In this document: one piece after another, positions 6,177 through 49,846 of the stretch
Position numbering within the stretch: position 1 is the stretch's first letter
Layout of the letters: every line of letters starts with the position of its first letter
Assembly: GCA_021730205.1 (NCBI GenBank)
Contig: CP072533.1
Span: 835,380-899,379, forward strand
Length of the DNA stretch: 64,000 nt
From: Candidatus Ruthia sp. Cpac_8_S14
GTDB lineage: Bacteria > Pseudomonadota > Gammaproteobacteria > PS1 > Pseudothioglobaceae
Direction: 5' to 3'
The notes under the pieces: generated by a model
Told to the model about the DNA's origin: nothing
The model's database searches: none
Seen by the model: only the letters and a program-made list of their open reading frames with translations
Position numbers and translations under genes: made by a program

Positions 6177-7813
6177 GAGATAATAGCATCATAACTAGAT
6201 TTACCCAAAGCACATTCGATTCCAACCCTGTCAATAAGAACAATTACATTATTAATAATAATACCTGCTAAAGAATAAATCCAGTGTGACCAACAAAATA
6301 ATAATTAGACCAAGCGTATCTTCTCGTTCAATATGGGCATATTGATTTTATGATTCAAAACTGGCTATTTGAAATAGTGGAATATTGGTTTTTCGAGATT
6401 TTGAATAAATACCAATAAAACGAATACACTCAAGGTTAAAATTTTCAGCCTCTTCAGCTCGAAATAAAACACGGTAGCGTAACACCTAATGCAGAAATCC
6501 CTCATAACCATTATAGATTTTCTTCACCATTTGAGTGCTATTAGATCTCTCATTGTTATCTGAATTCGATTGTTTGCTTATTTTTATTTAAATAGTAACA
6601 AAGCGTCGGAGTAATGCACAACGCTAAAATCCAAGAAAGCAATAAAAGCGATTAAGATAACTAATGAAATGGGACGCGTATATTCGCCCGCAACATTCTC
6701 AGCCAACATAAGCGGTAAAAAAACAAGTACAGTAGATAGCGAAGAAATTAACAATGGAATAAAGGGTTGCCCGCTTACTGACGCAAGCACATTAAGCGGT
6801 ATGAAACAATAATTAGCGTTGTAATACACTTACTGAAACACCATATACGGTGTTGGCTACTTGTTCTGCTTGGTACGTTGCTATGTCAAGATCCATACCA
6901 ATGAGTAAACTATTTTCGATATTATTAATAGCTTTTTTTAACGTGTGGTGAGTACTCTAAAACGTTGTAACCAGATAACATAGATATAGAAATAACCGCA
7001 GGTTTGCTGTTGTAATAAGAGGATTAACGTAATGCCGATAAACACTCACCAAATCTGACAATGGAACAGCATCTTCTGAATTAGGAGCGGATATTAAAGT
7101 GCTTCCAACATCTTCAAGACTGGAAAAGTTGCCAATAGGGCTCAATGAGAAAACTTTTTTATCTGTATCAATCAATCCTCCAGATCGAATGATATTTTGT
7201 TCTTTTAATATTTGTATTAGGCTAGATGGCTCAATACCCAGTTGGACTATTTTTGCATTAGAAGCCTTAAGGTAAATACGGTCACTTTGAACGCCAAGAA
7301 TGTCAATCTTTTTAGTACCTTCAACTTTGGTATAGGACATTACGAATATGCTTGGACATATCATTCATAACAGCCATATTAAGCTCTTTACCTGTGAGTG
7401 CTAACGTGATAATAGCCCCACATCACCAAACTGATTATTAACTTGCGAAGGATGGGTGCCTTGAGGCAGTTCAGCTTGAGCTTGTAACACTTTATTACGA
7501 AATGCTTGCCAAATGGATACTAAGCTAAAGTATCGATCTTGTATTTCAACATGAATAATAGATTCTCCAGTAGAAGAAGTAGAATGGATCTCCTTAATTT
7601 CAGCAATACTACGAATGTGTTTTTCTAGCTTTTTGGCGATTAAATTTTCAACCCTTTCAGGACTCATTCCTGAATAGTGAGTAATAACCAAAGTTTCACG
7701 TATGGTAATTCCTGGATCTTCTCTTGCTGGTAAAGTAAAGTAAAGTAACTAATTGCACCATAAATTAATAACACGGTCAATATCATAAATACAATTTGCG
7801 TAGGATCTTTCAT
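6177..7813 (-). pseudogene. Broken RND-family efflux pump (AcrB type)
   Basis: RND pumps are inner-membrane proton-driven exporters of about 1030 residues. The start can be read from an ATG at 7813. At about 7731-7750 a five-base unit (GTAAA on the plus strand) occurs in three tandem copies where two would keep the frame YFTLPARED; the third shifts the frame. Further pieces are GMSPERVENLIAKKLEKH (7691-7401), a porter-domain piece (IYLKASNAKIVQLGIEPSS, 7364-6957), a membrane piece with LVFLPLMLAENVAGEYTRP (6829-6584), and IIINNVIVLIDRVGIE near 6220. At under 1.65 kb it is about half the normal gene length, so large deletions have occurred. Loss of function is certain. Confidence 0.85.
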
Positions 7814-8485
7814 TAATTGTATTCTTTTATGGTTATTTCTTTGAGTCTAACTTTTTGATTATCGTGCAAATGAGCACTGCCAGCAATGGCAATAATTTTC
7901 CCTGGTTTTAAACCAGAAGATATAATAATTTCATTGTTAATAATACTTGCAATTTTAATCGTACGTTTTTTGACAATGCGCTTGATTTTATCAAAGACAA
8001 ACACGCAATATTTTAGGTATATTTTCTAATAATAAAGTAACTGGAAAAGCGGAAGCTAAAGAGGCTTGAGTACTAATTTCTGTCACATAACCCTGTAGTG
8101 ATACTCTGGGCTCAGCTGAGAAAAATATTGAGTGTTTTTTATCTTTTCTTAGCTTGTTGATTAATGTTCTTGGCACCAACGCAGACACTTATAAACCTTG
8201 CTCCCCACATTGATAACAAAAACTATTTGAGTTGAGATTATCTATTGTGACGGCTCAATCAGCCGAGCGCTAATGGTGCCATTATAAAGCGATTTTAATA
8301 TGGTATGATCTAAGTTTCTGTCATTAGATCTCTAATTGTATTTACTGAACTCTTAACTTTATCCAAAACTGTTTTAGAAACCCAACCCTTCCTCTTGTAC
8401 AAAACTATTTTGAGCCTCTTCAAGTTCAGCTTGATTTTTGGCAGGCAAGCATTCTGCACGATAAAACTTTAACAACAATTTAACC
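7813..8485 (-). pseudogene. Broken periplasmic adaptor (membrane fusion protein) of RND pump
   Basis: The adaptor subunit of an RND system bridges pump and outer-membrane channel. The C-terminal half is readable in two frames: AEPRVSLQGYVTEISTQAS...FPVTLLLEN (8188-7991) and VKKRTIKIASIINNE...LKPGKIIAIAG (8004-7813), both typical of the beta-barrel and membrane-proximal domains. Upstream, a lipoyl-domain piece (HTILKSLYNGTISARLIEP, near 8300-8240) and a short coiled-coil piece (AELEEAQNSF, near 8440-8410) follow in other frames with stops. The stop of the adaptor overlaps the pump start by one base (TAATG), showing the old operon structure. Confidence 0.8.
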
Positions 8486-10087: not shown

Positions 10088-10747
10088 ATGAATACAAACG
10101 TCAGCACTCAAACGCGTAGCATTAGCATTAATAGCGTTTTAAAAAATACATACCAATTACTTTCTGCAACCTTATTATTTAGCGGGCTAATGGCTTATCT
10201 TGCCATGTCCTTAAATCTGCCACATTTTGGCCTTTTAATCACTCTTGGTGGTTATTTTGGCTTGCTATATTTAACTAATAAACTTAAGAATTCGAGTTAC
10301 GGAATTTTAGCAGTATTTGCATTAACAGGCTTTATGGGGCTCACATTAGGCCCTGTTGTTGGCGCTTATACAACTACTTTTTCAAATGGCTCTGAACTGA
10401 TTGCTATGGCAATGATAGGCACGGGTTTTATCTTTTTAGCGCTGTCTTTTTATACCATCATTTCGGGTAAAGATTTTAGTTTTTTATCTGGCTTCTTAAC
10501 AGTGGGTGTTATTGTGGCATTTTTAATAGGAATTGCTGCTTATTTCTTTACTATGCCAGCATTATCATTAACTGTATCTGCAGCATTTATTTTATTAATG
10601 AGTGGCTTGATTTTATTTGAAACTTCAAATATTATCCATGGTGGCGAGACTAATTACATTATGGCAACAGTAACACTGTTTATTTCAATTTATAACTTAT
10701 TTTTAAGTTTATTACAGTTATTAGGTATATTTTCTGGCGAAAGTTAA
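10088..10747 (+). CDS. Bax inhibitor-1/YccA family membrane protein
   Basis: A 219-residue integral membrane protein with seven likely membrane segments. It matches the BI-1/YccA (UPF0005) family: a short polar N-terminus, TYQLLSATLLFSGLMAYLA, a central GFMGLTLGPVVG, and a C-terminal helix pair around LFISIYNLFLSLLQLLGIF, the stretch used as the family signature. In E. coli, YccA modulates the FtsH protease; other bacterial members act as calcium-leak channels. Which role applies here cannot be told. It starts with ATG at 10088, divergent from murD. Intact. Confidence 0.85.
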   Translation: MNTNVSTQTRSISINSVLKNTYQLLSATLLFSGLMAYLAMSLNLPHFGLLITLGGYFGLLYLTNKLKNSSYGILAVFALTGFMGLTLGPVVGAYTTTFSNGSELIAMAMIGTGFIFLALSFYTIISGKDFSFLSGFLTVGVIVAFLIGIAAYFFTMPALSLTVSAAFILLMSGLILFETSNIIHGGETNYIMATVTLFISIYNLFLSLLQLLGIFSGES

Positions 10748-11301: not shown

Positions 11302-12579
11302 GTGAATATTGGAATTTTAGGGTTGGGTACTGTCGGTGGTGGCGTGGTGAATGTGTTAAACAAAAACCAAGCGCAAATTGCGCGCCAATCTGGCGATAGT
11401 ATTAACGTTACTCACGTAGCTGTAAGAGATATAACCCAAACACGCATTTGCCCTACTGAGCATCTTAAACTAACTCAAGATCCATTTAAGATTGTGAATG
11501 ATGATGATGTTGATGTCGTTTTAGAATTAATGGGTGGTACAGATTTGGCTAAAGATTTGGTTGAACAAGTCATTAAGAATGGCAAACATGTCGTTACTGC
11601 CAACAAAGCTTTAATTGCCATACATGGCAACGAACTGCTAGCATTGGCAAAAGATAACAATACACATCTTTTGTTTGAAGCAGCTGTTGCGGGTGGCATT
11701 CCTATTTTAAAATCTTTAGAGCAAGGCTTAAATGCCAATCAAATTGAGTTAGTTGCTGGCATTATTAATGGCACAAGCAACTTTATCCTAACTGAAATGC
11801 GCAACAAAGGTAGAGACTTTGAAGATGTTCTTAAAGAGGCACAAATATTGGGCTACGCTGAAGCTGACCCTACTTTTGATGTCGAGGGTATTGATGCGGC
11901 GCATAAATTAGCCATTCTTGCCTCAATGGCATTTGGCTGTGAATTACAATTTAATCAAGTTTCAACACAAGGTATTAGCAAAATCAGTGGTGAAGATATT
12001 GCTTTTGCAGCAGAATTGGGTTACGTTATTAAACACCTAGGTATTGCTAAAAAACTAGATGGCAAATTACAAATGCATGTACACCCAACTTTAGTGCCTA
12101 AAACTCATCTACTGTCCAATGTTGATGGTGTTATGAATAGCGTATTAGTCAGAGGCAATGCAGTTGGTGAAACGCTTTATTATGGTGCGGGTGCGGGTGC
12201 TGAGGCAACGGCAAGTAGTGTTATTGCTGATCTGATTGATATTATCAAAGGCACTGTAAATCATGATGTTTTGGGCTGGCAATCATTAATAAACATTCCA
12301 AATTGCAAAACTGATGATATTGAAAGCGTTTTCTACTTGCGTTTATTAGCCACTGACAGGTCAGGGGTTTTGGCAGATATTACAGCAATCTTAGCCAATT
12401 ATAACATTAGTGTAGAGGCTGTTATACAAAAGCAAATTGACCAGGAAAATAATGCACACATTGCCATCATTACCAATCTTATCAAAACTAGTGAACTAAA
12501 TAAGGCGGTAGCAGAAATTCAAACTCATGACTACATTCAAGAAGATGTTAAGATTATCTTTGTTGAAACACTTAATTAA
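11302..12579 (+). CDS. hom: Homoserine dehydrogenase
   Basis: This enzyme reduces aspartate semialdehyde to homoserine with NAD(P)H, feeding threonine and methionine synthesis. The 425-residue monofunctional form starts with GTG at 11302. It has the nucleotide-binding GLGTVGGGV at residues 6-14, the catalytic region GIINGTSNFILTEM near 152, and EADPTFDVEG near 190. A C-terminal ACT domain (LRLLATDRSGVLADITAIL, about residues 350-425) usually gives threonine feedback control. It is followed after nine bases by thrC, so the two form an operon. A stretch of relic sequence (rppH) lies upstream. Intact. Confidence 0.95.
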   Translation: MNIGILGLGTVGGGVVNVLNKNQAQIARQSGDSINVTHVAVRDITQTRICPTEHLKLTQDPFKIVNDDDVDVVLELMGGTDLAKDLVEQVIKNGKHVVTANKALIAIHGNELLALAKDNNTHLLFEAAVAGGIPILKSLEQGLNANQIELVAGIINGTSNFILTEMRNKGRDFEDVLKEAQILGYAEADPTFDVEGIDAAHKLAILASMAFGCELQFNQVSTQGISKISGEDIAFAAELGYVIKHLGIAKKLDGKLQMHVHPTLVPKTHLLSNVDGVMNSVLVRGNAVGETLYYGAGAGAEATASSVIADLIDIIKGTVNHDVLGWQSLINIPNCKTDDIESVFYLRLLATDRSGVLADITAILANYNISVEAVIQKQIDQENNAHIAIITNLIKTSELNKAVAEIQTHDYIQEDVKIIFVETLN

Positions 12580-14557: not shown

Positions 14558-15819
14558 AAAGATATCTTTCACATCAACTTCCTAGTGGGCTAAAAACTTA
14601 TATATCCTTAATACTGAGCAGTATTATTACTCTAGTTGCTATTGATTTTTTTCTTGCTTCTAGTGATTATGCTCAACACACGTTCAAGCATTTAATTGCT
14701 TCAAAGCCTTATTTAAGCCTTGCCATTACGCCTGTTGTTTTTATATTGATTGTTTATGTTGCTAAGTATTTTTGCCATTATGTTCAAGGCAGTGGCATTC
14801 CACAATTAATTGCTGCTAATGACTCTCGCAACAAATCTATACGTGAAAAACTCTTGTCATTTAGAGTTGCCATTGGAAAAATTGTACTTATTTTTATGGG
14901 TATGCTTGCTGGTGCGCCTATTGGTATTGAAGGGCCTAGTATTCATATTGGTGGTTCAATATTTTTTGGCTTTAATCAATTCATTAAATTCAAACGCAAA
15001 CTACTTATCCATTCACTTATTGCGATTGGTGGTAGTGCTGGGCTTATCGTTGCCTTTAACGCACCAATTGCGGGTTTCTTGTTTAGCTTTGAAGAGATAG
15101 GTCGTCAACTCAAAAAACAAGCACTAGTTTTAATTGCCATCACGAGTGGGTTGGTTTACTTATTGGCAGTTATGTATCGTGGCAACAATGTCTATTTAAG
15201 TGATATGTCAGCTTATTTTATTGATTTAGCACTAATTTGGCAACTACTGCCGTTGGCGATATTTTCTGGAATCTTGGGTGGTTTATTCTCAAAAACCATT
15301 CTTTACTTAATTAAGAAATTTATTGCGCACAGCAAAACCAAAGTTGTCGTGACTGCCTTAATATTAGGTTTAATTATTGCGTTATTTAACTACCTTTCTA
15401 AAGGTCAAATTGCTGGCTCTGGTCGTGAAGAAGTGTTATTAATGTTAGCCGGACATCAGCTAGGTAGTGACTTTGTTGTGATGAAATATCTATCAACGCT
15501 AAGTTCTCTAGCTTCTACCATTCCGGGTGGTTTATTCATGCCCAGTATTTCTATTGGTGCTGGTATTGGTAGTGAAGTGAGCCATTTTTATTCACAAATC
15601 AGCCCGCAAATTATTATCATTATGGCAATGATTGCCTATTTAAGTGCTGTTATTAGGGCGCCACTTACTAGTGCATTTGTTATTTTAGAGATGACAAATA
15701 CACTTAATTTACTCATTCCAGCACTGATTATTGCCTTTATCGCCAATTGGGTGTCTAAACAAATATCCATACCACCAATCTATGAGTCATTGGCTGAGAG
15801 TTACTTAAAGTTAACGTAA
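14554..15819 (+). CDS. ClC-family chloride channel/antiporter
   Basis: A 421-residue membrane protein of the ClC family, which moves chloride, often in exchange for protons. The selectivity-filter motifs are present: GSGIPQ near residue 88, GIEGPS near 128 (GREGP in E. coli ClcA; the gating glutamate is kept while Arg is replaced by Ile), and GGLFMPSISIGAGIG near 326. The membrane segments are continuous. No cytoplasmic CBS domain is present. The gene begins with TTG at 14554 inside the cysM stop (four-base overlap), so it is translated from the same mRNA. Whether it works as a channel or an exchanger is unknown. Confidence 0.88.
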   Translation: MKRYLSHQLPSGLKTYISLILSSIITLVAIDFFLASSDYAQHTFKHLIASKPYLSLAITPVVFILIVYVAKYFCHYVQGSGIPQLIAANDSRNKSIREKLLSFRVAIGKIVLIFMGMLAGAPIGIEGPSIHIGGSIFFGFNQFIKFKRKLLIHSLIAIGGSAGLIVAFNAPIAGFLFSFEEIGRQLKKQALVLIAITSGLVYLLAVMYRGNNVYLSDMSAYFIDLALIWQLLPLAIFSGILGGLFSKTILYLIKKFIAHSKTKVVVTALILGLIIALFNYLSKGQIAGSGREEVLLMLAGHQLGSDFVVMKYLSTLSSLASTIPGGLFMPSISIGAGIGSEVSHFYSQISPQIIIIMAMIAYLSAVIRAPLTSAFVILEMTNTLNLLIPALIIAFIANWVSKQISIPPIYESLAESYLKLT

Positions 15820-16351: not shown

Positions 16352-19300
16352 TTGAAACAATATCACGAAATTCCTTACAACTATACCTCTTTTTCTGACA
16401 AAGAGATTGTGTGTCGTTTTTTAGGCGCTGATGCTTGGGATTTACTAAACCAACTGTGCCAAAATCGTAATACAGGTCGAAATGCTAGAATGCTATTTGA
16501 GGTGCTTGGTGATATGTGGATGGTTAATCGGAACCCTTATTTACAAGAAGACTTAATTAAAAATAAGCGTCGTTGGCGAACACTCATACAAGCGCTATAT
16601 TCTCGTTTAGAATCAATCAAGGCGCAAACTGATAATAACGCACAAGTCATTGAGCTTCTTAATCAGGCAGATATTGCAGTGCATAGTTTTAAGCGTTGTT
16701 TGAGCGATTTTAAAAACAATAAACAACGCATTAAAAAAGCCTTACTTAAAATTACAAACAACAATAACATTCGTTTTGATGCTTTATCACGCGCCTCGCA
16801 TTCAACTGACGCGACCGATTGGCGAGTAGAGTATCCCAGCGTGGTCATCACGCCAGATACCGAACAAGAAATATTACACATTGTTAGAACCTGTATTCAT
16901 CTAAATTTAACCATCATCCCTCGTGGTGGTGGCACAGGTTATACAGGCGGTGTCATTCCACTAAATACACAAACTGCTGTTATTAATACTGAAAAACTCA
17001 GCTTTATCGATAATATAAGCACCACTAACGATATACATAGCGTTAATGTTGGTGCAGGCGTGGTTACCAAACGCGTTAGTGAATTAGCCAGTCAGCATAA
17101 CTTAGTATTTGCAGTTGATCCAACCTCTCAAGATGCTTGCACGATTGGTGGTAATGTTGCTATGAATGCAGGCGGGAAAAAAGCCCTAAGATGGGGTACA
17201 ACAATTGACAACTTATTGTCTTGGAAAATGGTCATGCCAGACGGCTCATGGTTGCAAGTAAAACGCCTGAATCACAATCAAGATAAAATCCAATTGCTTG
17301 ATAAAGTAAGTTTTGAAATACATACACTCAAAGACGATGCACAAACCGTCATCAAAACCAGAACCTTAACCATCGATACTAACCATATGCGTAAAAGTGG
17401 GTTGGGTAAAGATGTTACCAATAAATTTTTAGATGGGCTGCCGGGTATTCAAAAAGAAGGTTGCGATGGGTTTATTACTTCTGCTGAATTTATCTTGTAT
17501 CAACCTTTAGAGTATATTAACACGCTATGCTTAGAATTCTTTGGTCATGATTTAAAAGCAGCAGTATCAACCATTGTTGATATTAAAAATAGTGTTGATA
17601 GCAACACTGATGTTGATCTTATTGGCATGGAACACCTAGATGCGCGCTATATTAAAGCCGTGCATTACACCACTAAAGCCAATAAGTCGCAGTTGCCGAA
17701 AATGATATTGCTAATCGATATTAGTGCTAATAATCAGCACTCACTTGACACTCAAATCGAAAAAATTAAAATCATTACTTTGCAACGTGATGGTGAATGC
17801 TTTATTGCTAAATCACTCAACAAAAGAAAAATATTTTGGAAAGACCGCGCCAATACCGCTGCCATTGCCGCCCACACCAACGCTTTTAAAATCAATGAAG
17901 ATGTGGTTATTCCACTGGACAAACTGGCAGACTATAACGACAGTATTGAGCATATTAATATCCGCTTGTCTATTGGCAATAAAATTGATACTTTAGCTGA
18001 AATTGAAGCCTACTTTGAAAATCTCAAACCAGAAAATAATCTTATTAAAGACAAAATTATTTCTGCCTTAACACTGTTGAATCAAATTAGCAATCAATGG
18101 CTAGATTTACTTAATCGTCTTAATGAACAAAAAGTCTTCAAACAGATACAAACAGAACAGATTGTAATCTCCTACATTAATGAATTTGCTTACCCACTTG
18201 ATGATTTGCTCATGGGTGATGTCTTCATTGATATTCGCAACCAAGTCAAAATCATTCATCAGGAATATCGTGAAGTGCGTTTATTTGTTGCCACACATAT
18301 GCACGCTGGTGATGGTAATGTACATACCAACATTCCAGTACATTCTCACAATACAAAAATGCTACATAAAGCTGAATCTGTGGTGGATGAAATTATGCAT
18401 TTGGCCTCAAGTCTTGGTGGGGTTATCTCTGGCGAACACGGTATTGGCCTGACTAAATACCAATATTTATCCGACGAATTCAAGCAAGCATTTACCCAAT
18501 ATAAGGCAAAAATTGACCCAGATAATCACTTTAACAAAGGAAAATTAATACCAGGTAGTGGGTTGGATAATGCCTTTACCCCATCATTACGCCTTGTTGA
18601 ACAAGAGGCATTAATCCTTGAAAGTAGTGAAATTGGTGAAATTAATGACATGGTTAAATCATGTCTGCGTTGCGGCAAGTGCAAAGATGTTTGCACCACG
18701 CACGTACCAAAAGCCAATCTTTTATACTCACCACGCGATAAAATTATTGGCACTAACCTTATTTCTGAGGCTTTTTTATACGAGGAGCAAACCAGACGTG
18801 GTATTTCTGTTAACCATTTTGATGAATTTGATGATATTGCTGATCATTGCACTATTTGCCATAAGTGTGCAAGCCCTTGTCCAGTTAATATTGATTTTGG
18901 TGATGTCTCTATTAAGATGAGGTCTATCTTAATCAAGCAAAATAAACGTCGCACCAATATTGCCTCAAAAGCCTCAATGGCTTATCTCAACATGACCCAA
19001 CCTTGGCAGATTAAATTAACCAAAAAAGTGTTGATTGATTTTAGCTATAAAGTGCAAAATATTGCCTCAAGAATGGCGCAACCTTTTTTGTATAAAAAGC
19101 CTAATAAGACCGTGGGCAAACCTAGTTTTAAAGTTGAGCTTGTTACTTTGTTAGATAAACCGTTGCCTACAGACACTGGGCTTGCGCCTATGCGTGAACT
19201 GCTCAATATTAATGATACTAACACCGTACCCATTTTTTCACATCCAGAAAAATCCAACGCCGACTCATCTAGCGTTTTTTACTTTCCTGGTTGTGGCTCT

Positions 19301-31621: not shown

Positions 31622-32510
31622 TTCACTGAATGCTGTGCCAGTAATGCCTGCCTTTTTATCCGCTGGGCATATTTGTCTGTTGGTTAAGGGATTTTTAGCA
31701 GTAACCTCAACCCTTTCATTACCTTGCCAAATCATATTCACTCCGCCACTGGCAAAATAATTAAAGTTGAGCTTGATGCTTACTCAGCACTTGGATAAAT
31801 TCTAGTGTCAATTTAGGTGGATCTTGAGTGAACACTGGGTTGATTCTTTTTGGCCTTAACAGGTAATTATCAGGTGTTCACTTTGGTTTTTTTGAAATTT
31901 GACATTTTGGCAAAATTTGTCGTCATTGGAAAGCGTGGTAGACTTTGTTTATTACTTGCAGATGAAACCACCTCCAGACTGCTATCCAAATACTATATAA
32001 TTCATACCTTAAATCTGTTTTAATATATCTAAGCTCGCTTCTCCATAAGGATAAGCGAAGGTTTTATTAGCCTTGCTCAATTCTTGATTGAATCGATTTT
32101 GTGTCCGCTGAATTTGTACTTTGTTCAAATCAAAAAAAAATGTGTATGACTGGTGCCATGATTATAAAACGTTATTACTTTTTATTTATAGTCAATTGAA
32201 TCTGTTGCTATAAAAATACTCACTGATATTTGATATCTTCGCAAAAGCGGATAAGCATTTTCTGCAATTGATTGATAAGCATCATCAGCCGTTAGAACCA
32301 GACACTTATTTGGCAAGCTATTACCATTCAAATGCTTAAGCATTGTTTTTAAGCTTAACACTTCAAAAAAACCATTAGCTTGCAGATATTGCAAGTGCTG
32401 TTCAAATAACTTAAGGACTAATACTGGTTGATTTAGGCGTGACATCAGAAAAATGATGATACAAAACAAAATCAACCAGTATTAGTCCTTACCAATGATG
32501 AAAACAACAT
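31622..32510 (-). pseudogene. Dead polysaccharide deacetylase
   Basis: A secreted NodB-type deacetylase relic, read from about 32510 downward. The start region is disrupted by an inverted repeat. It is followed by VLYHHFSDVTPKSTSISP and, after a one-base shift, KLFEQHLQYLQANGFFEVLSL, the standard opening of the PgaB/YadE-like group. Next come LPNKCLVLTADDAYQSI (the catalytic FDDGY motif now reads ADDAY) and YPLLRRYQISVSIFIAT, then in another frame KTFAYPYGEASLDIL (about 32080-32030) and LPRFPM near 31940. The C-terminal stretch ICPADKKAGITGTAFSELI lies near 31675-31622. Multiple frames and the altered catalytic motif make loss of activity certain. Confidence 0.8.
32412..32491. repeat. Perfect 23-bp inverted repeat with 34-nt spacer
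   Basis: The arms are 32412-32434 (TAAGGACTAATACTGG followed by TTGATTT) and 32469-32491, exact reverse complements with no mismatch. The spacer is 32435-32468. On the minus strand the second-read arm encodes KSTSISP of the deacetylase and the spacer encodes YHHFSDVTP, both conserved in the family, so that arm is ancestral. The first-read arm lies where the signal peptide should be and looks like an inverted copy of it. Confidence 0.9.
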
Positions 32511-32523
32511 CAATACAATAAAT

Positions 32524-32988
32524 TTAAGCGCCTTTAGTAGTCCCCTTAAAACCAATTTGGCGCCAGGCTTCATACGCCACAATAGAAGCGCAATTTGACA
32601 AATTTAAACTACGAGACCCATCTTGCATTGGCAAAGTAACACCCTTGTATTGATTTAATATGTCTTGTGGAAGCCCTCTAGTTTCTGGACCTAAAAGTAG
32701 TGAGTCGCCCGCTTGATACTTAACGTCTGTATAAATGGTTTCAACTTTTGAACTAACTGCAAATAGCCTTTTAGGTTTTGCCTTTTCCAAATAATCATCA
32801 AAATTGTCATATTCACTGACACGCATAAGTTCTTTATAATCTAGTCCTGCCCTGCGTAATTTTTTATCCTCCATTTCAAAACCGTAAGGTCTGATAAGGT
32901 GTAAATTTGCACCCATATTGGCACACAAGCGAATAATAGCGCCAGTATTGTTGGGTATTTCAGGCTCAAACAGCACTAAATTTAACAT
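32524..32988 (-). CDS. trmL: tRNA (cytidine(34)-2'-O)-methyltransferase
   Basis: TrmL methylates the ribose at the wobble base of two leucine tRNAs. The 154-residue SPOUT-family protein starts LNLVLFEPEIPNNTGAIIRLCAN, has LHLIRPYGFEMEDKKLRRAGLDY, and the C-terminal knot that binds S-adenosylmethionine: LLLGPETRGLP followed by LPMQDGSRSLNLSNCASIVAYEAWRQ (quoted by motif). Length is typical. It starts with ATG at 32988, divergent from clpB; the 77 bases between them contain the clpB promoter. Intact. Confidence 0.93.
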   Translation of the reverse strand: MLNLVLFEPEIPNNTGAIIRLCANMGANLHLIRPYGFEMEDKKLRRAGLDYKELMRVSEYDNFDDYLEKAKPKRLFAVSSKVETIYTDVKYQAGDSLLLGPETRGLPQDILNQYKGVTLPMQDGSRSLNLSNCASIVAYEAWRQIGFKGTTKGA

Positions 32989-33065: not shown

Positions 33066-35624
33066 ATGAATATTGATAAAATGACCACCCAATTTCAGCA
33101 AGACTTAGGCGCTGCACAATTTATCGCTGTTACGAAAAATAACAGTGCCATAGAGGCGGTGCATGTTCTAAGTGCCATGTTGCAACATACCAATAGTAGT
33201 GTTAGTAATTTACTACTCAGCACTAATATTGATACTCAAAAACTTAAACAAGAAATTGATAAAGAAATTGATACATTAGCCACGATTAACAATCCAAATG
33301 GTGATGTTAATATTTCTCAAAATTTATTACGCCTATTAAACACAGCCGAAAAGATAGCTGCTGATAAGCACGATACATATTTATCAACCGAACTATTCTT
33401 ATTGGTCATCATTCAAGGTAATGATACAGCCACAAAACTATTAAAAGCTGCTGGTGCAAATGAGGTAAGTTTAAACCAAGCAATTGACAACCTTAGAGGA
33501 GGTGAAAACATGACTGATCAAAACGCAGAAAATAACAGAGATACACTGAATAGATATACCCAAGATTTAACTCAATTAGCCATTGAGGGCAAACTTGACC
33601 CTGTGATTGGTCGTGATAGTGAAATTCGTCGTGCTATCCAAGTATTGCAACGCCGTACTAAAAACAACCCAGTACTAATTGGCGAGCCTGGCGTGGGCAA
33701 AACTGCCATTGTTGAAGGCCTGGCACAACGCATTATTAATAACGAAGTGCCCGAAGGAATTAAAGGTAAGCGCGTTTTGTCATTAGACATGGCTGCACTG
33801 GTAGCAGGTGCTAAATATCGAGGTGAATTTGAAGAACGATTAAAAACCGTGCTCAAAGAATTAGAAGCCGAGCAAGGGCAAGTCATTCTATTTATTGATG
33901 AGTTGCACACCATGGTCGGTGCTGGCAAATCTGATGGCACTATGGACGCAGGCAATATGTTAAAGCCTGCCCTAGCTCGTGGTGATTTACACTGCATGGG
34001 TGCTACTACACTAGATGAATATCGCCAATATATTGAAAAAGACTCAGCTTTAGAACGCAGATTCCAAAAAGTATTGGTGGACGAACCAACCGAACAAGAC
34101 ACCATTGCTATTTTGCGTGGCCTTAAAGAAAAATACGAGGTGCATCATGGTGTGGAAATCACTGATCCTGCCATTATTGCTGCTGTCACCTATTCAACCA
34201 GATACATTACCGACAGACAATTACCAGATAAAGCCATTGATTTAATTGATGAAGCCGCCTCACAAATTCGCATGGAGATTGATTCAAAACCAGAATCAAT
34301 GGACAAACTTGACCGTAAATTAGTACAACTTAAAATCGAACGTATGGCGCTTAAAAAAGAAAAAGACAAAGCCTCTAAAGTGCGACTAAAAGAATTGGTT
34401 GATTTAATTAAATCACTAGAAAAAGAGTACGCTGATTTGGAAGAAATTTGGAAAAAAGAAAAATTAGTGGTTCAAGGTATACACCATCTTAAAGAAGAAC
34501 TAGAGCAAGCAAAAGCCGATTTAGAAAGCGCACATCGCAATAACGATTTAGCCAAAATGAGTGAACTTCAATACGGCATTATTCCTGGATTAGAACAAAA
34601 AATAGGTATCGCTGAAAATACTGATACGCAGCAAATGACCCTGCTTAGAAATAAAGTTACAGAGGATGAAATCGCCCACATTGTCGCTCGTTGGACGGGC
34701 ATTCCTGTGGATAAAATGATGGCAGGCGAAAAAGACAAATTACTGCAAATGGAGAACATTATTCACAAACGCTTAGTGGGTCAAGACAAAGCCGTTAAAG
34801 TGATTTCTGATGCCGTACGTCGTGCACGCAGTGGCTTGTCTGATCCTAATCGCCCCGATGGCTCATTTTTATTTATGGGTCCAACTGGCGTGGGAAAAAC
34901 CGAACTCACCAAGGCCTTGGCAGACTTTTTATTTGACACCGAACAAGCCATTGTCCGTGTTGATATGAGTGAGTTTATGGAAAAACACTCGGTTGCACGT
35001 TTAATTGGCGCACCCCCAGGCTATGTTGGCTATGAACAAGGTGGTATGTTAACTGAGGCTGTGCGTCGCAAACCTTATTCAATCATTCTACTTGATGAGA
35101 TTGAAAAAGCCCATCCAGATGTGTTTAACATTCTGTTGCAAGTACTGGATGATGGTCGTCTAACAGATGGTCAAGGTCGCACAGTTGATTTTAAAAACAC
35201 TGTTATTATTATGACTTCGAACCTAGGTTCACACCTGATTCAACAAAACCTAGGTAAGAATATATCCGCTGAACTTTCTAAAATTGTCAGCGAGTACTTT
35301 AGGCCTGAGTTTGTCAATCGTATTGATGAAATCGTGACCTTTAAAACGCTAGAAAAATCCCAAATTAAAAGCATTGCACTCAGACAAATTGAAATCTTAT
35401 CAGCGCGCTTGGCTAAACTTAACCTCAAACTAACATTGAGTGACACAGCCATCAGTATGATTGTTGACAAAAGCTATGATCCCGTATTTGGCGCTAGACC
35501 ACTCAAACGTACCATACAGCAGTTGTTAGAAAATCCTTTATCACAAAAAATTCTTGCTGGAGAATTTTTATCAGGCTCAACCATTCATAGCGATGCTAAA
35601 GATGGACAAATCGTTTTCTCTTAA
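33066..35624 (+). CDS. clpB: Disaggregase ClpB
   Basis: ClpB is a hexameric AAA+ chaperone that pulls proteins out of aggregates together with DnaK. The 852-residue protein has the N-domain, a first nucleotide-binding domain with GEPGVGKT near residue 206 and its Walker B ([15 protein letters not shown]), and a coiled-coil middle domain around 400-530. The second nucleotide-binding domain has GPTGVGKT near 605, [16 protein letters not shown], and the C-terminal [11 protein letters not shown]. Length is typical. A second start inside the gene (near [11 protein letters not shown], about residue 147) may give the shorter ClpB form known in other bacteria. A heat-shock promoter lies upstream and a terminator downstream. 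Confidence 0.96.
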
Positions 35625-35806: not shown

Positions 35807-35842
35807 AAAATACGCTATGAAGTGTACTTCATAGCGTATTTT
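35807..35842. repeat. 36-nt perfect palindrome upstream of XRE gene
   Basis: AAAATACGCTATGAAG, then TGTA, then CTTCATAGCGTATTTT: two 16-base arms with no mismatch around a four-base loop. It lies 51 bases before the start of the small XRE-type regulator and 133 bases after the clpB terminator. It could be a terminator (T-rich right end), an operator for the regulator, or the relic of a repeat; the sequence alone does not decide. The remaining bases between clpB and the regulator (35675-35806) show no gene. Confidence 0.8.
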
Positions 35843-48846: not shown

Positions 48847-49846
48847 TATCTGCTTCTTTAGTTAGTAATTTTTCACGAATTTGTATCTCGATTTTTTGAC
48901 TGAGCTTAGGGTTTGATTTTAAATATTCACGGGCGTTGTCTTTACCTTGGCCAATTCGCTCTCCTTCAACACTATACCAAGCACCTGCTTTTTCAACAAA
49001 CCCGTGTTTCACACCTAAATCAATTATTTCACTTTCAAGTGAAATGCCCTCGTTGTAAAGGATTTGAAATTCTGCTTGTTTGAAGGGTGGTGCAACTTTA
49101 TTTTTTAATACTTTAACGCGTGTTTCATTGCCTAAAGTCTCATCACCTTTTTTAATCGCACCAATACGGCGAATATCTAAGCGTACTGAGGCGTAAAATT
49201 TCAACGCGTTGCCACCAGTTGTGGTTTCAGGATTGCCAAACATAACACCAATTTTCATACGTAATTGGTTGATAAAAATCACCATGGTATTGGTTCGCTT
49301 AATGTTTGAGGTAAGTTTTCTAAGTGCTTGAGACATAAGTCGGGCTTGAAGTCCCATATGTGAAGCGCCCATTTCACCCTCTATTTCTGCCTTGGGTGCG
49401 AGTGCTGCAACAGAGTCAATCACCACAATATCCACGCCACCTGAGCGCACTAACATATCCGTAATCTCTAATGCCTGCTCACCTGTATCAGGTTGTGAAA
49501 TTAACAAATCATCCGTATTAACATCCAAACGTTTAGCGTATCTAGGATCAAGCGCATGTTCAGCATCAATAAAGGCCGCTGTACCACCTAGTTTTTGTAC
49601 CTCAGCAATCACGTGCAATGTCAGCGTTGTTTTGCCTGATGACTCAGGACCATAAATTTCGATCACTCTCCCCCTAGGCAAACCACCAATACCTAGGGCA
49701 ATGTCTAAGCTTAAACTGCCTGTAGAAACTGCCTCAATATTGCTTTGGGCTTGGTCATCGCCCAAAAACATAACTGAACCCTTGCCAAATTGTTTATCAA
49801 TTTGTGCAAGGGCTGCTTTTAAGGCTTGTTCTTTCTGTTCATTCAT
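48812..49846 (-). CDS. recA: Recombinase RecA
   Basis: RecA forms filaments on single-stranded DNA and drives homologous recombination and SOS induction. From ATG 49846 (ribosome site AGGAG) the protein is 344 residues. It has Walker A GPESSGKT at residues 66-73, the catalytic Glu region ([15 protein letters not shown]), Walker B ([21 protein letters not shown]), loop L2 with [27 protein letters not shown] (quoted by motif), and an acidic C-terminal tail. All look intact. No CTGT-N8-ACAG LexA box is visible in the 66 bases before the gene, so SOS control may be absent. It is divergent from ribD. Confidence 0.96.

Follow-up and report, generated by a model that had tools for sequence, protein, structure and literature searches.

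The inverted repeat and its setting

The 64-kb stretch of DNA analysed here, referred to as the window, belongs to genome G000, a single contig of 1,184,132 bases (99.98% complete) that, judging from its kinship and size, is presumably that of a clam symbiont. Its same-genus relatives include G009 (Ca. Ruthia sp. Plio_17_S18, CP072538.1) and G003 (Ca. Ruthturnera sp. Tsphm01, CP125320.1); two further genomes used below, G002 and G001, measure 1,160,782 and 1,022,154 bases, respectively. On the minus strand, a polysaccharide-deacetylase-like pseudogene spans approximately 31622–32540, with no open reading frame longer than 97 amino acids. Homologues with long open frames (about 335–380 aa) are found in G007, G035, G014, G024 and G031, and the gene is broken in G010, G009 and G002 as well as in G000. 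Also on the minus strand lies an intact gene (32524–32988) whose product, 95% identical to the protein of one relative, we take to be a TrmL-type RNA methyltransferase, and whose stop codon falls 32 nt before the repeat described here.

Within the pseudogene, a left arm at 32412–32434 (plus strand, TAAGGACTAATACTGGTTGATTT) and a right arm at 32469–32491 (plus strand) flank a spacer of 34 nt at 32435–32468. The arms are complementary at 23 of 23 positions in the assembled sequence, as the initial annotation had reported, and no perfect inverted repeat in the window is longer. A scan for perfect stems of at least 13 bp returned three repeats (23, 17 and 13 bp), the same three whether the spacer limit was 150 or 200 nt, and across 768 kb of sequence simulated from the window in 12 runs of a first-order Markov model, four repeats arose, all of 13 bp, which bears out the earlier statement that a 23-bp match exceeds chance. 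Folded as single-strand DNA, the repeat reaches −23.8 kcal/mol (z = −8.6). The 17-bp repeat lies elsewhere in the window, at 35807–35842, with a 2-nt loop and past a clpB-like ORF that ends at 35624.

Polarity of the two arms

The deacetylase-like product, which is read from the minus strand, has its KSTSISP encoded by the left arm and its YHHFSDVTP by the spacer, in agreement with the first reading of the locus. We aligned the locus with 14 relatives, one row of which (G024) is out of register at the left arm. The left arm is kept in the same-genus genomes that retain the locus and in most of the other relatives, the right side differs, and the flanks are collinear. The spacer, which is not inverted, is likewise collinear, with 3–8 edits in seven same-genus relatives. 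Where G000 has AAATCAACCAGTATTAGTCCTTACC, the relatives have AAACCACACAACTATTAGCACTTGCC or a sequence near it, encoding ASANSCVVLL, the end of the signal peptide and the first mature residues. Measured against the same-strand sequence of seven same-genus relatives, the right arm of G000 differs by 7–9 edits; measured against the reverse complement of their left arms, it differs by 1–4. At the level of these alignments, the comparison establishes both the collinearity of the flanks and the polarity: the left arm is the ancestral donor and the right arm a derived inverted copy within a dead gene, as had been proposed.

The details of that proposal fared less uniformly. The relatives were expected to carry one arm and a normal signal peptide, and this is what we find, except that G010, G009 and G002 have lesions of their own. 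The right arm had been placed at the position of the signal peptide; it does cover the cleavage region and the first mature residues, taking the place of the ASANSCVV stretch of the relatives and bringing in an in-frame TGA, but the start of the protein lies outside it. Loss of the start codon, which had been attributed to the copy, is instead a separate change outside the arm, from GTG in the relatives (VLKFIVL) to GCG in G000 (ALKFIVL).

Evidence for templated copying

We compared the window with its relatives in a templating scan, which asks of each cluster of differences whether nearby sequence of the relative, taken as its reverse complement, covers it with an exact match. The first 17 nt of the right arm are the exact reverse complement of the left arm of G009 (16 nt for G010), a match that spans 4–5 differences; no other tract in the window reaches 16 nt. 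We regard this core, at 32469–32485 (plus strand, AAATCAACCAGTATTAG), as diagnostic of templating, which it establishes in terms of sequence: scans with reversed or complemented sequence as controls returned no tract of at least 16 nt, and when eight random edits were applied to the ancestral arm in each of 20,000 simulations, the longest match was 14 nt and the observed 17 was never reached.

The same alignments reveal the state before the mutation. In the relatives, the two sides of the spacer already share a 7-bp seed (TATTAGC/GCTAATA) and scattered further matches. The initial annotation had envisaged a template switch that overwrote the original sequence; its templated inverted copy stands, but the replaced DNA was not unrelated to the donor. 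Since the ancestor was itself an imperfect inverted repeat, the event amounts to a quasipalindrome correction, in which the derived arm (here matching at all 23 positions within G000) comes to be fully reverse-complementary to the conserved one.

Not every base follows from a simple copy. Set against the relatives, 17 nt of the right arm are copied and the outer 7 nt are altered in both arms. These outer bases, TAAGGAC (32412–32418 in the left arm, plus strand), include an inserted base and are unlike most relatives; the left arm of G002 already has GGAC and stands one edit from that of G000. Two histories fit: a left arm already mutated that was then copied in full, or two exchanges between the arms. 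The one-base insertion before KLFEQHL, which had been tentatively linked to the same event, lies inside the matched left arm and, as far as the alignments indicate, may be older than the copy or may stem from an exchange between the arms. The copy does not account for a 2-nt T insertion just inside the right arm.

A probable template switch at a quasipalindrome

Very likely, the repeat is what a template switch during replication left behind at a quasipalindrome. Before the event, the sequences on either side of the 34-nt spacer were imperfectly complementary by virtue of the seed. During copying of the right side, the nascent strand would have taken the left arm as its template, either by folding back on itself (intramolecular) or by jumping to the other strand (intermolecular), two routes with footprints alike; 17 bases or more, perhaps all 23, would have been copied before the strand returned to its own template, leaving the imperfect repeat perfect. 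A switch with the left arm as template accounts for the polarity and the exact match, and also for the seed in the ancestor and the collinearity of the flanks. Against a single left-to-right copy stand the outer 7 bases, which require a prior mutation of the left arm or a second exchange. We infer that replication was the agent and that one event rather than two took place, with either strand a candidate for the copying one; an identical footprint is left without replication by, for example, repair synthesis on a cruciform. The event struck a gene that other lesions also broke, and the resulting hairpin is probably without function.

A hairpin 32 nt past the trmL stop that folds to −53 kcal/mol as minus-strand RNA (z = −8.1) might instead have been selected as a 3' stabiliser or terminator of the trmL transcript. 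We judge this improbable: a terminator scan finds nothing at the site, where the repeat lacks the G+C-rich stem followed by a U-run of an intrinsic terminator (the minus-strand sequence past the stem reads AGTTATTTGAACAG), searches against Rfam gave sub-threshold matches and no family at the gathering score, and trmL is present in relatives without the perfect stem, the sister genome G010 among those lacking it. An artefact of assembly or amplification is marginally less probable again. Inverted chimeras are a known product of strand-displacement amplification, but the replaced arm measures only ~23 nt between a spacer and flanks that are collinear with the relatives on both sides; moreover, a comparable 18-bp repeat (L137, below) occurs in both G000 and G010, and a comparable event is found in G002, a separate assembly.

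RecA-dependent gene conversion between the arms, in place of a polymerase template switch, seems to us quite improbable. G000 does have an intact recA (window 48872–49834, minus strand; G000:C1:884251–885213), yet the ancestral identity between the arms is the 7-bp seed, far below the lengths that efficient RecA pairing needs, and a similar scar occurs in G002, where the RecA search gives only a 36-position remnant with stops. Independent point mutations in an unconstrained gene could in principle have converged on a perfect repeat; the simulations and control scans described above, none of which reached a comparable tract, make this a most improbable origin. Equally hard to credit is an origin as the inverted repeats that bound a small mobile element: MITE-like elements with an inverted repeat of 35 bp do form a family in relatives, but within G000 the locus matches only itself, once directly and once as its reverse complement, where an element would have multiple copies. 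No second copy with a target-site duplication was seen, and the spacer is ancestral coding sequence.

Apparent recurrence in related genomes

The mutation had been presented as a rare case, a description made doubtful by five further loci, in G000, G010 and G002, that show similar events. We surveyed sampled stretches of related genomes for perfect stems of at least 18 bp with spacers of 13–200 nt, and found four in G000 (444 kb), two in G010 (438 kb), three in G002 (432 kb) and two in G001 (340 kb), with none in the stretches sampled from G009 (72 kb), G003 (360 kb) or G012 (380 kb). Two of the three repeats in G002 belong to a single MITE-like element, one being its 35-bp terminal inverted repeat and the other, of 19 bp, lying within it. 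We rejected this 35-bp repeat (L209, 3301–3460) as a template-switch case, the element being ~160 bp long and MITE-like, with 37 query matches in G007.

With the element removed, nine repeats remain in 1.65 Mb of the first four genomes, against none in 0.74 Mb of G003 and G012. Were the repeats to fall evenly, all nine would lie in the first set with a probability of ~0.04, or ~0.05 for an independent count of eight, in which an 18-bp repeat common to G000 and G010 is counted once; both values belong to a four-versus-two grouping that was set after the counts had been seen and that omits G009, whose genome is likewise small and of clam type and whose short sample gave no repeat. The apparent excess of repeats in the first four genomes is suggestive only, coming from few genomes whose composition and lineage are uncorrected.

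The five other long-spacer perfect repeats that we compared, in G000, G010 and G002, are all derived, through homogenisation of the arms, a newly written arm or inversion of the spacer; having been picked as the longest repeats, they indicate that long repeats tend to be derived and not how frequent the process is. At L129 in G000 (18648–18774; G000:C1:258648–258774), a 28-bp repeat with a 71-nt spacer inside a 132-aa ORF, the left arm is missing 12 nt that form an in-frame bulge in the aligned relatives. At L137 (8966–9016 in G000; 18 bp), three substitutions in the right arm, all towards pairing and common to G010, arose in the ancestor of G000 and G010. In the same ancestor an arm was inserted at the 18-bp repeat found at 7074–7123 in G000 (L135) and near 14848 in G010 (L189); compared between these genomes, its loop scores 45.5 in inverted and 30 in direct orientation and so appears to have been inverted. 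The right arm of L197 in G010 (12236–12320; 30 bp) is newly written and absent from the nine relatives aligned, and the region is shorter than theirs. L208 in G002 (7729–7852; 27 bp) combines homogenised arms with a 70-nt spacer that is inverted relative to G010, G006, G003 and G011. The two survey repeats of G001, both of 27 bp, lie outside these five loci. A hairpin loop also looks inverted between L130 in G000 (15181–15233) and L194 in G010 (10231–10278), with a 51-nt inverted match at 88%.

Comparison of G000 with G010 over 227 kb of aligned sequence gave four clusters, each templated over at least 13 nt and derived in G000, and none in either control. The repeat in the deacetylase-like pseudogene seems to be one case of a process that recurs in this lineage. 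We put forward only tentatively, and with more doubt than belief, the wider proposition that hairpin-templated mutation is recurrent in reduced clam-symbiont genomes, that it gives rise there to complex lesions, leaving long and perfect inverted repeats not only in pseudogenes and spacers but in at least one intact gene, and that it is commoner in them than in larger-genome relatives.

Relation to known systems

The class of mutation, in which the polymerase switches template as it replicates DNA, commonly with a strand bias, is already known, and what is new here is a well-polarised example. Template-switch mutations at quasipalindromes, described by the Ripley model, have been characterised at a hotspot in E. 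coli thyA and in lacZ reporters (PMC7202029). As there, copying between the arms turns an imperfect repeat into a perfect one and leaves the flanks unchanged; the present case differs in being a natural event in a relative of clam symbionts, with a 34-nt spacer and a 23-bp arm as against the 18-bp quasipalindrome of the reporters (PMC7202029). In genes of S. cerevisiae, inverted repeats undergo both arm homogenisation and spacer inversion (PMC8604942). Multinucleotide changes in one arm perfect the repeat in yeast as they do here, and the spacer inversions have their likeness in L135 and L208, whereas our cases come from another domain of life, lie in a pseudogene, in other DNA and in one intact ORF, and are polarised by related species rather than by strains (PMC8604942). 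Earlier work, as cited there, suggests repeated template switching in non-coding proteobacterial repeats (PMC8604942). Template switching also creates and maintains RNA hairpins in rRNA genes, with the same footprint of compensatory stem changes and loop inversion (PMC8794818); by contrast, the present hairpin lies in a pseudogene and gives no sign of function. For endosymbionts, the literature searched contained nothing relevant on this class of mutation, which is weak evidence given the partial coverage of that search.

A mutation usually studied in reporter genes can here be read in nature, with donor, recipient and pre-mutation state all legible from the relatives. Templated events look like many substitutions that arose independently, and they thereby distort estimates of divergence, of selection and of when genes died in reducing genomes. 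Should the apparent excess in this lineage be real, these genomes would offer a natural place to ask which losses of repair release hairpin-templated mutation.

Repair genes

In the 12 genomes of the genus, no match to SbcD exceeds the cut-off, while 13 of 14 control genomes have a match (8 of them over the cut-off). Loss of SbcD alone does not explain the pattern, because G003 is also without SbcD yet has no long-spacer repeat of at least 18 bp in the 360 kb sampled. We considered the loss of hairpin-suppressing nucleases as a cause and rejected it for G000, in which ExoI and ExoVII are intact. The gene for the large subunit of ExoVII, xseA, has no match in G008 and, in G009, lies in three pieces (G009:C1:842520–843766), two of them with an internal TGA.
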